In this document: positions 17,230 to 24,664 of the stretch, one piece after another
Numbering within the stretch: the stretch's first letter is position 1
How the letters are laid out: the number at the start of each line of letters is the position of its first letter
NCBI GenBank assembly: GCA_020356105.1
Contig: CP070634.1
Coordinates: 865,078-911,545, forward strand
DNA: 46,468 nucleotides
Direction of reading: 5' to 3'
Source: Rhodospirillales bacterium
Lineage (GTDB): Bacteria; Pseudomonadota; Alphaproteobacteria; UBA8366; JADFVY01
Program-made: the position numbers and the translations under genes
Notes under the pieces: generated by a model
What the model was told of the DNA's origin: nothing
Databases searched by the model: none
The model's input: the letters and a program-made list of their open reading frames with translations, nothing else

Positions 17230-18486
17230 TCAGGGGGGTGTTGGCGTTGCGCGTTCGAGTAGCACGATCATCCGCCGCCGGCGCTGCCACAACAAGATCA
17301 TGGCCAGCAGGCACAGACATCCACCGACGGCAAGCGGCAAGCGCAGCCCGAACGGTCCGGACAACGCACCCATAACCACGGATCCCACCGCCGGGCCGCC
17401 TCGGAAGATAGCGCCGTAGAGGCTGAGCACTCGTCCACGCACCCTGTCCTCCACGGCGCGCAGGATCAAGGTCTGGGTGGCGATGGCGCTGGACACCATG
17501 GCGCCGCCGAAGATCGCCGCAGCCGGGACCGCGACCCAGAACAGCGGAGTCCCGGTAAACAGCAACAACGATGCCCCACAGCCTCCGCCGCCGAGCAGAG
17601 CGATCATCAGCAGCCCGGCAGCGTTGCCTCGCTTGGCCAGCCAGATTCCCCCTGCCACCGCGCCGAGCCCGATCGCCGACGTCAACCAGGCCAGCCCGCT
17701 CGCACCGCGCGCGAATACCTCGTCCGCAAAACCCGGCAACAATTCTCCGATCGGCCGGGCCAGGACAGAGATCGTCAACATTAGCAGCAACAACGGACCG
17801 ACCGCCGGATGGCGAGCCGTATAGCGCACCCCCTCCGCAATCTGCGCCAACATCCCGTTCTCCGAGTCGAGCACCGGCCCGGTGGCTTCGATGCGCAACC
17901 GCGTCAGCGCGAACAACAGCGTGAACACCGTTGCCCCGTATAGCGCGAATGTGGGCGCCACCCCCCACCAGGTAATGATGGGGCCGGCCAGCGCCGGGCC
18001 GAGAAAACGCGCCAGGTTGAAGATCAGCGACGATATCGCGACCGCCGCCGGCACATCGTTCGCCTTCACCAGCGACGGAACGAGAGACAGCCGCACCGGC
18101 ATGTAGACCGCCCTGACGGCCCCAAAGAAGGCGTTCAGCAGGACGAGGGAGAAGATCTCGATCAACCCCGACCAGGTCAGCGCAAACAACACCAGAGTTT
18201 GCAGCAAAGAGAGTGTCTGACAGAGCAGCGCCAGCCTGAGACGGTCCAGGCGGTCTGCCAGAACGCCGGCGAACGGCCCCACGACGACGGCTGGAAACAG
18301 GTCGGCGAATGCGACAACCCCGAGCCAGAAACCGGAATGAGTCAGCTCCCAGGTCAGCCAGCCGACACCGAGCCTCTGGACCCAGAGCCCGATCAGGGCG
18401 ACTGCGCTGCCCGCGGTAAAGATTGCGAAATTGCGATTGCCGAAGGCGCTGCGGATCGCACCGAAATCGGCCAGGGCATTTGCCAT
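17230..18486 (-). CDS. MFS transporter (EntS/MFS_3-like exporter)
   Basis: 418-residue protein with 12 hydrophobic helices. An MFS motif-A-like loop GVLADRLDRLRLALLCQ follows helix 2, and the family start FGNRNFAIFTAGSAVALIGLWVQRLG is seen as FGNRNFAIFTAGSAV. This is the MFS_3/EntS-like group, proton-driven exporters of siderophores, drugs or other small molecules. The substrate is unknown. It runs in the same direction as the liv unit 115 bp downstream, but a candidate promoter lies between. Start ATG at 18486; the ribosome site is weak. Confidence 0.8.
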   Translation of the reverse strand: MANALADFGAIRSAFGNRNFAIFTAGSAVALIGLWVQRLGVGWLTWELTHSGFWLGVVAFADLFPAVVVGPFAGVLADRLDRLRLALLCQTLSLLQTLVLFALTWSGLIEIFSLVLLNAFFGAVRAVYMPVRLSLVPSLVKANDVPAAVAISSLIFNLARFLGPALAGPIITWWGVAPTFALYGATVFTLLFALTRLRIEATGPVLDSENGMLAQIAEGVRYTARHPAVGPLLLLMLTISVLARPIGELLPGFADEVFARGASGLAWLTSAIGLGAVAGGIWLAKRGNAAGLLMIALLGGGGCGASLLLFTGTPLFWVAVPAAAIFGGAMVSSAIATQTLILRAVEDRVRGRVLSLYGAIFRGGPAVGSVVMGALSGPFGLRLPLAVGGCLCLLAMILLWQRRRRMIVLLERATPTPP

Positions 18487-18608
18487 TGGGATGTGATCTT
18501 TCCCGTTATCGTCAAGTACCAGTAATTCCGATTTCGAAACGCTGCGGTAACATTTCCGCGGCTATTATGTGCGGCATTTCCAGGGTTTTGGAACAGGAGC
18601 ACCGTACG

Positions 18609-18914
18609 ATGCAAACACCAGCCGTCGAAATAGCCGATCTGCGACGCATCGTAAATCGCTTGCTCGACCACATCGAAAGCAACGGGAAACGGTCGATTGC
18701 GCTGAATCAGACGTTTTACTGGGATGTGCCCGAGGAAGACCGCTATGGCATAGATGACCGGCCAGGGAATCTGGACGTTCGGTCGTTGCATGACGACTGG
18801 GATTGTATCCGCTTTCTCGTTGAAGAGGGTGAAGAACCGATCGTCGACCAACTCAGTGAAGCCGCGACGCTGCTCAGGTACATCGGTGACAGCCTGCGTG
18901 AAGAGATTGACTGA
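18609..18914 (+). CDS. Small hypothetical protein
   Basis: 101 residues, acidic, no signal peptide or membrane helix. A predicted N-terminal helix (IADLRRIVNRLLDHIES) is followed by TFYWDVPEEDRYGID and an acidic helical end. I do not recognise the family. The ATG at 18609 follows AGGAG by 9 nt; the longer frame to 18423 overlaps the divergent MFS gene and has atypical composition. A TATTAT box at 18563-18568 may be a -10 element. The next gene begins 30 bp downstream, so it may share a transcript with the two tandem membrane proteins. Confidence 0.75.
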   Translation: MQTPAVEIADLRRIVNRLLDHIESNGKRSIALNQTFYWDVPEEDRYGIDDRPGNLDVRSLHDDWDCIRFLVEEGEEPIVDQLSEAATLLRYIGDSLREEID

Positions 18915-18944
18915 CCGCGCGGCGGCAGCGGCTGTGACAGCAGT

Positions 18945-19811
18945 ATGAGCAGGAAGCGCCTTTATCTGGTTGTCGGTTCCCTGTGGGCGCTACTGCTCGG
19001 TTTGGGATCGGGTTTGGCTGCCGCGGCCGCCGCGGCGGCCATCGCATGGCTGTTTTTGTTCGGCGATTCGAGCTGGCCGACTTGGACGGGCTGGGCCATC
19101 CCCGCCTTCGGGATTTTGGTCGGATTTGCGACCTTTGCCAGCGCCGTATTTGTCGCTCGCGTCGTGGCCAATCGTCATGGCGCAAAGAACGCAGGGCCGG
19201 CCGATGGGCGCGGCGGTGGCGCGTTTGCCTGGGGCCTTCTCGTCGTAGGCCTCGTCATCGCCGTCGGATTCGCATGGCAGCAGTACGGTCGGAGCAAGCA
19301 GATCGAACGAGCCCGGGCCGCCATCGATACGGCGGCCCTCTATTTCCCGATGCTGCTGTCCGAGACACACCGGATCGTCGACATCGCCGTCGAGTGGCCG
19401 GACGGAGATACAGATGGGCAGGCAACCGTGACTCTTGATGGCCTGCGCACAGGGCAGTATCGCCTCGATTGGCATGTCCATGACAAAGTGTACGAGCGCT
19501 CGCTGCTGACTGGCGGGGAACCGCTGTCCCTTTCGCCCGGTCGAAGCATGATGAGCGTCACAATGCCGGTCCAATCGGTGATCGAAGGGTATCGGGCGTT
19601 GCTGAACCGACATGACGCCAACGTCCTCGTCGATGAGTGGTTCGTCTTCGAAGCACAATTGATGCCGATTCTCACCACATACGAAACGTCGCAACTGCCA
19701 CCGCACGAACTGCACAATCTCGCCAATGGCTGGTCGGCCCTGATACGACGGTCGAGCGCGGAATTTCCGGTCCGATTCTTCTTGTACGGGCAGGTTGGGT
19801 CATGGGACTGA
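18945..19811 (+). CDS. Hypothetical membrane protein, tandem paralogue A
   Basis: 288 residues. Three hydrophobic helices lie near residues 5-38, 48-72 and 90-112, followed by a soluble domain of about 170 residues, probably outside the cytoplasm. The soluble part contains a beta-rich segment (GQYRLDWHVHDKVYERSLL). The next gene encodes a paralogue: the N-terminus aligns (RLYLVVGSLWALLLG with KLYAAAGLVWGLVLG), as does the end (AEFPVRF with TSFAVRF). Family and function unrecognised. ATG at 18945, weak ribosome site. Its end overlaps the next gene by 10 bp if that gene starts at 19802. Confidence 0.8.
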   Translation: MSRKRLYLVVGSLWALLLGLGSGLAAAAAAAAIAWLFLFGDSSWPTWTGWAIPAFGILVGFATFASAVFVARVVANRHGAKNAGPADGRGGGAFAWGLLVVGLVIAVGFAWQQYGRSKQIERARAAIDTAALYFPMLLSETHRIVDIAVEWPDGDTDGQATVTLDGLRTGQYRLDWHVHDKVYERSLLTGGEPLSLSPGRSMMSVTMPVQSVIEGYRALLNRHDANVLVDEWFVFEAQLMPILTTYETSQLPPHELHNLANGWSALIRRSSAEFPVRFFLYGQVGSWD

Positions 19812-20710
19812 ACGACGCTGCGCAATCGGGCCGTGACTTCGGTGACGCCCATTCCGGCGGTATGAAGATCCAGAAGCTTTATGCGGCCGCAGGACTGGTC
19901 TGGGGGCTCGTCCTTGGACCGGATGCCGGGTTATACGCGGCACGCGTCATGGGCAGCGTTGCCTGGCTTTACCAATTCGAAAACGGCGCGTGGGCGGATT
20001 GGGTGATTATTCCGTTCGGCGCGATCATCGGCCTGACGGTCCTGTTTTCCTGTTATCAACTCGGCTCGGCCGCCGGGCACCGGTACGACGAAGCGACGTC
20101 GAAACGGCTGAAACACGCGAAGTCCGTCCCTTGGGCCGTGCTGATCGTCGGCGTAGCGGTGGGGGTGATGACCACCCTGACGATCGAGGACAGGCAACGT
20201 GCCGTGGTGCGTTATGTCGAGGCGCAGAGGCAGGCCGCTGCGCGGCTGCTTGCTCTTTCCGACCGCCTTCACAGGATTACGGGATACCGGGTCGAGTGGC
20301 CGGGCGGCGGCGAGCCGGGCCGCATTGACCTTTCGTTCAGGGGAAGGCGCAAGGGAGACTACCGGTTCGAGTGGAAGATATTGTCGCAAGGCGGGACCGA
20401 GCCGCTTCTCGGAGGCGGCTACAACGTCCGGCTGGGCGAAGCGTACAAGACAACGAGCCTATCGTTCAGCGCGACGGACCTGGCCAACGCATACGTTCTG
20501 CAAATGAAGACGCCCGGACGTATCGTTGCGGTCGATGAACGGTTCCGGCTTCTGCTAGAATTGCGCCCCCTGCTGGCAGCGAAAGACTGGGCCGCTCTGC
20601 CCGAGGACGAGCCGGTGCGGCTGGACGAAGGCGAGTCGATACTTCTCAAACGTGCCGAAACATCGTTTGCGGTGCGGTTCGAAGCGCGCGGAGGACGGGT
20701 TGTCTGGTAG
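19802..20710 (+). CDS. Hypothetical membrane protein, tandem paralogue B
   Basis: 302 residues from the ATG at 19802. Same layout as its upstream neighbour: helices near residues 25-58, 68-90 and 112-130, then a soluble domain with GDYRFEWKILSQGGTEPLL mirroring GQYRLDWHVHDKVYERSLL of paralogue A. Both share the GYRVEWPGG / DIAVEWPDG motif. Homology would place the start at the ATG at 19862 (MKIQKLY), but only 19802 has a plausible ribosome site (GGCAGGTTGGG). Function unknown. An internal gene duplication with divergence is the simplest explanation. Confidence 0.78.
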   Translation: MGLNDAAQSGRDFGDAHSGGMKIQKLYAAAGLVWGLVLGPDAGLYAARVMGSVAWLYQFENGAWADWVIIPFGAIIGLTVLFSCYQLGSAAGHRYDEATSKRLKHAKSVPWAVLIVGVAVGVMTTLTIEDRQRAVVRYVEAQRQAAARLLALSDRLHRITGYRVEWPGGGEPGRIDLSFRGRRKGDYRFEWKILSQGGTEPLLGGGYNVRLGEAYKTTSLSFSATDLANAYVLQMKTPGRIVAVDERFRLLLELRPLLAAKDWAALPEDEPVRLDEGESILLKRAETSFAVRFEARGGRVVW

Positions 20711-20786
20711 CCCTCAGATCGCCCGGGGATGACATCGTGTGGGTCGGCGGCTTGACGTTGCCGCGTCATCACCCGAAATTCGATGC

Positions 20787-23444
20787 ATGAGCGCAGAAGC
20801 CCGAACGCCGGGGAATGCCCCGCAAACCATTTGGCTCAAGGATTATCGGCCGCCCGATTGGTCGGTCGAGAGCGTCGCCCTGGAATTCGATCTCAATGAA
20901 GAGACGACGCGCGTTGCGGCTCATCTCGATCTGCGACGCAGATCCGGCGTTGCGAGCAAGCCGCTGATCCTCGACGGGCAAGACCTCAAGCTGCTGTCCA
21001 TCGCGGTGAACGGCAGGCCGGTGCCCACCGGACAATATCGGTTGACCGCGGATTCTCTGATCCTGGAGAACCCGCCGACCGCGTTTACACTGGACACGGA
21101 GGTCGAAATCCGGCCGCAAGACAACACCGCCCTGGAAGGCCTTTACAGGTCGGGCGGCACGTTCTGCACCCAGTGCGAGGCCGAGGGATTCCGGCGAATC
21201 ACATTCTTCCCCGATCGGCCCGACGTGATGACGACGTTCCGCACCACGATGACCGCCGACCAAACGCGCTATCCGGTGCTGCTGTCGAACGGCGATCTGG
21301 TCGAAAGCGAGATTTTGCCGGAAGGCCGCCACCGGGCGGTGTGGGAGGATCCCCACCCCAAACCCTCTTACCTCTTCGCGCTGGTCGCCGGCGACCTCGC
21401 GTGCGTCGAGGATACCTATACGACTGCTTCGGGCCGTGCCGTCCAGCTCCGGATTTATGTTGAACCCGGCAATGAGGACCGCTGCGCCTGGGCGATGCAA
21501 TGCCTGAAGAACGCCATGCGCTGGGACGAGACGCAATATGGCCTGGAATACGATCTGGGCATATTCATGATTGTTGCGGTCAGCGATTTCAACATGGGCG
21601 CGATGGAGAACAAGGGGCTGAACATCTTCAACGCGAAATTCGTCCTGGCCCGGCCCGAGACCGCGACCGACAGCGATTACGCCTTTATCGAAAGCGTCAT
21701 CGCGCATGAATACTTCCACAATTGGACGGGCAATCGGGTCACGTGCCGCGACTGGTTCCAGCTTTCTTTGAAGGAGGGGTTGACGGTATTTCGGGACCAG
21801 CAATTCTCGGCCGACATGCGCGGCGCGGCGGTGAAAAGAATTGGTGACGTCCGCGCGTTGCGAGCCCGACAGTTTCCTGAAGATGCCGGGCCGCTTGCGC
21901 ATCCCGTGAGGCCTGATTCGTATATTGAGATCAATAACTTCTATACCGCCACGGTCTATGAAAAGGGCGCGGAGATCGTACGCATGCTCCACACCCTGCT
22001 GGGCGACGACGGATTTCGAAACGGCATCGATCTGTATTTTCGGCGTCACGACGGGCAGGCCGTGACCTGCGACGACTTCGTCGCCGCAATGGAGTCGGCG
22101 ACCGGTGGCGATCTGTCGCAGTTCCGGTTGTGGTATGGACAGGCGGGTACGCCACGAGTCGAGGTCGAGGGGCGCCATGACGCGGTCGCCAAGACCTACG
22201 AGCTGACGTTTCGGCAGACGACACCCGCGACTTCGGGCCAGGATACAAAGAAACCGCTGCACATCCCCATTTCGATCGGCTTGCTCGACAGCGCAGGGCA
22301 TGAAATACCGCTCTGCCAAGAAGATGGGGACCATGCGGCTGGCGCTACCCGCACGCTGGAGCTGCGGGAGCCGGTTCAGACGTTTCGGTTCGTCGGTGTG
22401 GACACCCCGCCGACACCGTCCGTCCTGCGGGGCTTTTCGGCTCCGGTCATCGTTGAACAAGAGCTCTCTCTTGAGCAGCGGTTCCACCTGATGATCCACG
22501 ACACCGACCCGTTCAACCGCTGGCAGGCAGGACAGGATATCGCCGTGGATCTGCTGCTGGCCAGCGTCCGGGCAATTCAACGCGGCGGCTCAGCGGCGGG
22601 GCACGTGGCCTTCGCCAACGCCTTGCGGTGCGTCATCGAGGACGCGACGCTCGACCCTGCATTCGTGGCCGAGATGCTGGCGCTGCCGAGCGAGGAAGTC
22701 GTCGCCGACCGCTTGCAGGTGATCGACGTGGATGCCGTACACAAGGCGCGCGAGAGCTTGCGTCGACAGCTCGCTGGCGAACTCCGGGACTGCCTGCTCG
22801 CCGCGTATCACCATCATGCCGGCAACGCACCTCCGTCGGCTTCGCCCGAAGCGGCCCGTCATCGCGCGCTGAAGAACAGGGCATTGGGCCTTCTCATGGC
22901 GGGAGGCGAGGCGGAGATCGACGATCTTTGCTACGCCCAGTTCGAGACGGCCAAGACCATGAGCGATTCGATCGCGGCGTTGTCGTTCCTGGCGCATGGC
23001 AGCTCGCCGCACCGCCGACGGGCCTTGTCGGAGTTTCGGCAGCGCTGGGCCGAGGATCGCCTGGTGCTCGACAAATGGTTCATGGTCCAGGCAACCGCGC
23101 CGCGACCTGATACGCTGGTCCGGGTGCGCGAACTAATGCGGGATTCCGCCTTTTCTTTGCGAAACCCGAACAAGGTGCGCGCCCTGATTGGTGCCTTCGC
23201 CGGCGCCAATGCGGTGTGTTTCCATGCCGCGGACGGCTCGGGTTATCGATTTCTCGCCGATCAGGTGCTGGAGCTCGATCCGGTCAACCCACAGGTCGCG
23301 GCCCGATTGTTGACTCCGCTGGGACGCTGGCGCCGATTCGATGCGCATCGGCGGAATATCATTCGCGGGCAGTTGCGGCGCATACTCAAGCGTCAAGGAT
23401 TGAGCCGCGACGTTTACGAAATCGCGGCAAAGACATTGGGTTAG
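20787..23444 (+). CDS. pepN: Aminopeptidase N
   Basis: 885-residue M1-family zinc metallopeptidase, the usual length for PepN. The zinc site HEYFHNWTG gives His307, Glu308, His311, with Glu330 (LKEGLTVF) exactly 18 residues further. The substrate-N-terminus motif GAMENKGLN precedes it. It cleaves N-terminal residues from peptides in the cytoplasm. The ATG at 20787 is chosen by family length; no strong ribosome site. It converges on the outer-membrane protein gene downstream, with hairpin-forming repeats between them. Confidence 0.95.
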   Translation: MSAEARTPGNAPQTIWLKDYRPPDWSVESVALEFDLNEETTRVAAHLDLRRRSGVASKPLILDGQDLKLLSIAVNGRPVPTGQYRLTADSLILENPPTAFTLDTEVEIRPQDNTALEGLYRSGGTFCTQCEAEGFRRITFFPDRPDVMTTFRTTMTADQTRYPVLLSNGDLVESEILPEGRHRAVWEDPHPKPSYLFALVAGDLACVEDTYTTASGRAVQLRIYVEPGNEDRCAWAMQCLKNAMRWDETQYGLEYDLGIFMIVAVSDFNMGAMENKGLNIFNAKFVLARPETATDSDYAFIESVIAHEYFHNWTGNRVTCRDWFQLSLKEGLTVFRDQQFSADMRGAAVKRIGDVRALRARQFPEDAGPLAHPVRPDSYIEINNFYTATVYEKGAEIVRMLHTLLGDDGFRNGIDLYFRRHDGQAVTCDDFVAAMESATGGDLSQFRLWYGQAGTPRVEVEGRHDAVAKTYELTFRQTTPATSGQDTKKPLHIPISIGLLDSAGHEIPLCQEDGDHAAGATRTLELREPVQTFRFVGVDTPPTPSVLRGFSAPVIVEQELSLEQRFHLMIHDTDPFNRWQAGQDIAVDLLLASVRAIQRGGSAAGHVAFANALRCVIEDATLDPAFVAEMLALPSEEVVADRLQVIDVDAVHKARESLRRQLAGELRDCLLAAYHHHAGNAPPSASPEAARHRALKNRALGLLMAGGEAEIDDLCYAQFETAKTMSDSIAALSFLAHGSSPHRRRALSEFRQRWAEDRLVLDKWFMVQATAPRPDTLVRVRELMRDSAFSLRNPNKVRALIGAFAGANAVCFHAADGSGYRFLADQVLELDPVNPQVAARLLTPLGRWRRFDAHRRNIIRGQLRRILKRQGLSRDVYEIAAKTLG

Positions 23445-23494: not shown

Positions 23495-24664
23495 TCAGCC
23501 GCCAAAGATCATTTCAAGGCGAAAGAGTATACCGGGCACCGGCTCGTAATCTCTGGCCCTGCGCATGGCGAGCTGAGGGGCAGCTTCAAGGAACAGCCAG
23601 TCGCGCCAGATTTGCCGGCGATAGCGGAGCCGCAACGTCGTTTCGTCGAGACGGTGCGGATCGGTGCGAAACGAGTTGAGGATCTGGTATTCGAGGGCTG
23701 TCTTCTTGCTCAGCGGCTGGAACAGCGAGAAGTTCACGCCATAGAAGTAATTGGGGTCTTCTTCCAGCCAGACCCCGTTGATTTCCCATCGGAAGAGCAT
23801 TTCGGCCGGCAACGCGCGGTCGAGACCCAGGAGTGTCCGAGACTCCAGACCGTCGAGAGAGTAGTAGCGGAACCGCTGGACGAAGCGGAAATTCCAGAAT
23901 TCGTTCAGCCCGACCTGGGCGCGGTAACGCGCACCGAGGAACGGATTGGGATCGTAGCCGTCGAAATCCAGCCCGACACGCAAGCTGATGGACCGCTTGG
24001 GGTCGTTGCGCAGGAAATAGGAGAGTGCCGCGGTGAGGCTATCAAGTCCCTGGTCCAAAGGCTCGGACGCGGGTGGCGCAGTGTCGGCCAGCGTGTCCTC
24101 ATCCGCTTCGCCGGCGCTCAGGACCTCGAGCCGCAACCGTTCATCCAGGGCCGGTAACTTAAGGTAGAGACGGGCCTTCGCGTCGACATCGACTCCCTCG
24201 TATTCTTCCACGAAACTGTCGATGCGAAGCCGCAGCCGCGATTCGTTGACCTCCGCCTCGTAGTTCTCATTGGCGAAGAACCCATCGAGCCATGAGGCAA
24301 GACCGCGTACGCCTGCGGACGTGTACGCGTGGCCGGCATCGATGAATCCGGGCGACCCATCGTCGTCTTCCGGGACATCTTCGGCGGGCTCCGGGTCACC
24401 GCTCTCCGCCGTATGGTCGACGGGCGCCGTGTCCACAGCCTCCGTTGCCTCTTCCGGTCGTGCCGCGCCGTCGTCGTGGTCGGCCGGAACGTCGCTGGCT
24501 GGTGCGTCGCCGTTTTCGGCCGAATCTTCGATCGGCAGCGCCCCCTCAACCGGTATCGGCGCGTCGGCGGAACGAGCCGCACTCCCGGCTAGCGCCACGA
24601 AGAACGTGAGGGCGATGGTCATAAAACGCCACATCCGTCCAGTGCCGGAAATGTCTCGGTTCAC
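23495..24664 (-). CDS. Probable outer-membrane beta-barrel protein, unknown function
   Basis: 389 residues. A signal peptide (residues 10-32, ITIALTFFVALAGSAARSADA type) is followed by a highly acidic Pro/Glu/Asp linker (about residues 33-105). The rest consists of alternating polar/hydrophobic strands rich in Arg and aromatic residues (e.g. RFVQRFRYYSLDG, FRWEINGVWLEED), typical of a beta-barrel. It ends in EMIFGG, not the usual terminal Phe. I do not recognise a named family. The GTG at 24664 has AGGAGG 11 nt upstream; ATG at 24634 is an alternative that keeps the signal peptide. An inverted repeat lies just upstream. Confidence 0.7.
   Translation of the reverse strand: MNRDISGTGRMWRFMTIALTFFVALAGSAARSADAPIPVEGALPIEDSAENGDAPASDVPADHDDGAARPEEATEAVDTAPVDHTAESGDPEPAEDVPEDDDGSPGFIDAGHAYTSAGVRGLASWLDGFFANENYEAEVNESRLRLRIDSFVEEYEGVDVDAKARLYLKLPALDERLRLEVLSAGEADEDTLADTAPPASEPLDQGLDSLTAALSYFLRNDPKRSISLRVGLDFDGYDPNPFLGARYRAQVGLNEFWNFRFVQRFRYYSLDGLESRTLLGLDRALPAEMLFRWEINGVWLEEDPNYFYGVNFSLFQPLSKKTALEYQILNSFRTDPHRLDETTLRLRYRRQIWRDWLFLEAAPQLAMRRARDYEPVPGILFRLEMIFGG

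Follow-up and report, generated by a model that had tools for sequence, protein, structure and literature searches.

Two adjacent genes, A and B, encode tandem paralogues, each predicted to combine three membrane helices with an Ig-like beta-sandwich. They follow a small gene, S, and all three genes are under purifying selection. The membrane proteins belong to a small, rare, unnamed and narrowly distributed family. The best explanation available, to which we give a probability of about one half, is that A and B may constitute a binding or adaptor module, anchored in the membrane and facing the periplasm, with S as its cytosolic partner.

Locus and predicted architecture of A and B

The window, i.e., the whole stretch of DNA analysed (46,468 nt), corresponds to positions 865078-911545 of a 3.86-Mb single-contig genome (G000). 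S, A and B are read in one direction and in this order (Table 1), and the open reading frames of both A and B are present. The first-pass annotation described A and B as overlapping or abutting. Starting B at an alternative in-frame ATG, 19802, would give a 10-nt overlap with A, and possibly this codon was meant. However, since in the congener (G001) the frame offers no start before the codon that corresponds to 19862, the ATG at 19862 is most likely the true start of B, leaving a spacing of 50 nt and no overlap. No clear ribosome-binding site deciding the B start was seen. Within 18400-20850 no sigma-70-like promoter was found, and terminator-like sites number four against 2.3 expected. The aminopeptidase N gene begins after a gap of 76 nt on the same strand as B. 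Further along the window, positions 23495-24664 of the minus strand encode a protein of 389 aa that, by reading, seems to carry a signal peptide and has no Pfam match at E 0.001.

Table 1. Features of the S-A-B locus (positions within the window)
Feature	Position	Strand	Basis and remarks
S, small gene, 101 aa	18609..18914	+	translation; acidic, net charge -13; orthologues present in 5 of the 59 relatives searched
Gene A, 288 aa, three predicted membrane helices and predicted Ig-like domain (residues about 140-281)	18945..19811	+	
Gene B, 282 aa, paralogue of A, predicted Ig-like domain (residues about 135-276)	19862..20710	+	
VEWPDG codons of A, at the start of the predicted sandwich	19389..19406	+	alignment, sequence
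MFS transporter gene (Pfam MFS_3), divergent, on the other side of S	17230..18486	-	Pfam
Aminopeptidase N gene (peptidase family M1), downstream of B	20787..23444	+	Pfam, comparison with relatives

A and B are paralogues. Their products share 28% identity over 278 aligned positions (BLASTP, E 6e-30), and the alignment score of 302 lies far above the maximum of 59 among 500 shuffles of B. Both halves of the alignment exceed all of their 500 shuffles: the membrane part scores 138 (shuffle maximum 63) and the soluble part 172 (shuffle maximum 48). The tandem paralogy proposed in the first-pass annotation is thereby confirmed, as is the VEWPxG motif common to both proteins, which reads VEWPDG in A and VEWPGG in B. 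No further copies of the family were found in the G000 genome. Comparison with the congener gave dN/dS ratios of 0.05 for S, 0.27 for A and 0.15 for B, rough values because the synonymous distances (1.1-1.3) are near saturation. The low ratios identify S, A and B as real genes, all of them under purifying selection.

The plan of three hydrophobic stretches followed by a beta-rich C-terminal domain, also noted at first pass, is common to A and B. The stretches lie near residues 15-33, 52-70 and 92-110 in A and near 6-24, 46-64 and 89-107 in B, and three such regions are counted by hydropathy in all seven family members when windows above the threshold that adjoin or overlap are counted as one. 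In the AlphaFold2 models of both proteins the C-terminal domain (residues about 131-270) has block pLDDT values mostly of 81-95. The block means of the membrane part are 39-64, mostly under 60, so the packing of the helices is not predicted. The modelled domain is a beta-sandwich that fits the Ig-like fold (two sheets, about seven or more strands) and superimposes with Z of 9-11 (VIA-align) on solved domains which we take to be Ig-like. Foldseek alone gave a best E of 4e-4. According to the first-pass annotation, unrelated folds of A and B would have contradicted its proposal; both models show the same sandwich, although they are not independent, as the same six sequences stand behind both. 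The sandwich is probably oriented towards the periplasm, judging from a reading of loop charges: a short basic N terminus on the inner side followed by three helices would place it there.

The small gene S and its neighbourhood

The S product has no hydrophobic segment (hydropathy) and is probably cytosolic. S orthologues are present in G000, G001, G003, G004 and G005, and each of these genomes has a membrane gene of the family 3' of S on the same strand, in agreement with the linkage to the small gene suggested at first pass. The G004 contig breaks off within the membrane gene, after its first 21-22 residues. In this genome the stop codon of S and the start of the next gene share 8 nt (ATGGCTAA), an overlap that can be read as a sign of translational coupling. 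The constant order in five genomes out of five, together with this 8-nt sharing in one of them, argues that S and the membrane gene form a real module. That the charge of acidic S might complement that of the cytosolic loop was also considered, but this idea was dropped since the loop of the single-copy proteins carries no clear positive charge. S was not found on the 8,526-nt contig carrying the distant family member of G113, so it may not belong to the wider family; a weak S-like match (E 0.006) is present in G129.

The MFS gene (Pfam MFS_3) lies divergently beyond S in all five genomes with S. Only its first 24 residues precede the contig end in G005, and in G003 it is separated from S by 855 nt that include another short frame (L004:3486-3767, minus strand) coding for 93 aa, which we take to resemble a Phd-type antitoxin. 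The genes downstream of the family vary: aminopeptidase N in the genus under study, QueG in G003 and a TonB-type receptor (by reading) in G005. The aminopeptidase N gene adjoins the pair in the congener as well, is absent from the examined contigs of the single-copy genomes, and probably lies outside the module.

In G003 and G005 a palindromic element of about 269 nt separates S from the membrane gene (L004:2381-2649 and L005:557-824, respectively). Its terminal inverted repeats of 35-36 nt are 100% and 94% complementary, and it looks like a miniature transposable element. The G003 element has CTAG at both ends, occupies the position of the ATGGCTAA overlap of G004 and leaves both frames open, the element end supplying a GTG start. 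Related pieces, with partial and both-strand matches included, number 13 in G001, 11 in G003, 29 in G005 and four in G006; none were found in G000, G002, G004 and G113.

Distribution and duplication of the family

Within the order, the family occurs in four of 43 genomes: as a tandem pair in G000 and its congener, and as one B-like copy in each of G003 and G005, which represent a sister genus. A search of 59 relatives with A returned the same four genomes. Among 385 genomes of the class there is one further clear relative, a 265-aa protein in G113 from another order (E 1.8e-13). The single-copy homologues that the first-pass annotation had proposed to look for thus exist in G003 and G005, with a distant one in G113. 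No other convincing relative was found when the class search was repeated with the G113 protein added, or in 398 genomes of the phylum; the alignment searches scored at most six candidates per genome, so some relatives may be missed. A pattern scan of named species genomes found three loci, apparently those of G001, G003 and G005, all in metagenome-assembled genomes and labelled Alphaproteobacteria, Pseudomonadota and Proteobacteria; such a scan misses distant relatives, as it did the G113 protein. An earlier scan of named genomes with B alone gave no relative, and plasmids gave no match. Upstream of the G113 family member, on the same strand, L015:2262-3050 encodes a putative lipoprotein of 262 aa (P0010) with no Pfam match, found only in G113 among six genomes and in none of the five searched of the window's family.

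Weak profile matches in the wider searches, in G278, G366, G184, G772, G774, G474, G448, G702, G714, G452, G525 and G506, were rejected after rescoring of the loci and a reading of the open frames in two of them. Matches that reappeared scored about 10-22 bits and covered mostly membrane helices and never the whole sandwich; those of G702 and G714 did not reappear, being 53-aa frames under the 60-aa limit. Matches of the G113 protein in G157, G212, G231 and G137 are partial (E 2.5e-4 to 0.005).

The retained duplication described at first pass therefore holds for one genus (both genomes examined) and does not extend to the sister genus, where two genomes keep a single B-like copy; the A+B pair is not obligatory for the family. 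In a tree rooted on the G113 protein, the single copies cluster with B (support 96/97), while A is placed separately (95/96). The identity of B to the single copies is 40-43%, and to the A copies 28-31%. These results suggest, if marginally, that the duplication preceded the split of the genera and that A was then lost in the other genus. It is also possible, though in our opinion rather less probable, that the duplication was recent, within the genus, and that A only seems ancient through fast evolution. The presence of both copies in one genus only (g1) agrees with this alternative, and so do the very long outgroup branch and the marginal rejection of the tree joining A and B (p-AU 0.048), but both the best tree and the identity values speak for the earlier duplication.

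Proposed role and known structural relatives

We propose that A and B are inner-membrane proteins with the N terminus inside, anchored by the three N-terminal helices, from which a long helix would lead into the periplasmic Ig-like sandwich. The ancestral unit may have comprised cytosolic S followed by one B-type membrane protein, the two being made together, and A would be the second, faster-evolving copy, found in this genus, where it sits between S and B. The sandwich could bind a periplasmic partner, either a protein or a glycan, A and B may assemble together or share the partner-binding role, and S would act on the cytosolic side.

A tentative alternative is that A and B function as separate proteins with different partners and form no complex, A diverging towards a new role. 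The higher dN/dS of A is in line with such a divergence, as is the occurrence of the B type alone in two genomes of the sister genus, which implies that B works there without A. Against this, A is still constrained, and both genomes of the genus keep it adjacent to B in an unchanged order. A further reading, which we consider improbable, is an undescribed three-part envelope device in which A and B, as paralogous membrane-anchored Ig-like receptors, would pair in the membrane and pass a periplasmic signal to acidic, strongly conserved S, synthesised in step with them, possibly in connection with the neighbouring divergent MFS exporter. The protein family would be relevant mainly to envelope biology in an alphaproteobacterial family that is poorly cultured, and its clear anatomy and conserved operon partner make it easy to test.

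The family was not recognised at first pass. A, B and S have no convincing match in Pfam, NCBIfam, PHROGs or PADLOC by the curated cut-off, or by E under 0.001 where none is given; the best values were 0.0018 (NCBIfam, below its cut-off) and 0.003 (PHROGs). The latter belongs to PHROG 12854, of unknown function, matching residues 160-238 of A, a part of the sandwich. All seven family members lack a convincing Pfam match, and a PDB sequence search gave few hits, with E of 0.7 or more and nothing convincing among them. Matches to the EYxxD small membrane protein, DUF4381, Abhydrolase_9_N, holin, cytochrome bd and others were rejected, as they fell below the cut-offs and the stretches shown were membrane helices. 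A full-text literature search for proteins of the A/B plan returned no paper, which does not by itself establish absence from print.

The structural matches define a fold and not a function, since a large number of unrelated Ig-like domains score alike; this fold is a common one and says little about function. The best matches are to Ig-like domains with a binding or structural role and not to catalytic domains. The carbohydrate-binding domain of Wzt from Aquifex aeolicus (6o14) is a stand-alone sandwich chain of 145 residues, 115 of which align to nearly the whole B sandwich (Z 9.1, rmsd 3.5, 14% identity), not above unrelated Ig-like matches, and it is not among the best 50 structure matches listed for A; Wzt is an ABC ATPase fusion, while A and B have no ATPase domain (Pfam). 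This alignment and the presence of GH2 (glycoside hydrolase family 2) domains among the best matches would fit a glycan-binding sandwich engaged in envelope glycan handling, a reading we regard as quite unlikely, as the factor XIII and other non-glycan Ig-like domains match equally well or better, within 1-2 Z units, and the neighbours tested (the MFS transporter, aminopeptidase N and, in G003, QueG) include no glycan gene. The Ig-like domain of GH2 has the same predicted sandwich as A and B (Z about 9.5-10.5), at identities mostly of 9-16%, but A and B have no catalytic barrel. The beta-sandwich domain of factor XIII/transglutaminase resembles them in topology over 109 residues (Z 10.8 for B and 11.0 for A, rmsd 2.6) at about 10% identity. 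The papain-like core of transglutaminases has no Pfam match in A or B, where the predicted sandwich fills the soluble part and, unlike in the transglutaminases, would be anchored by three membrane helices.
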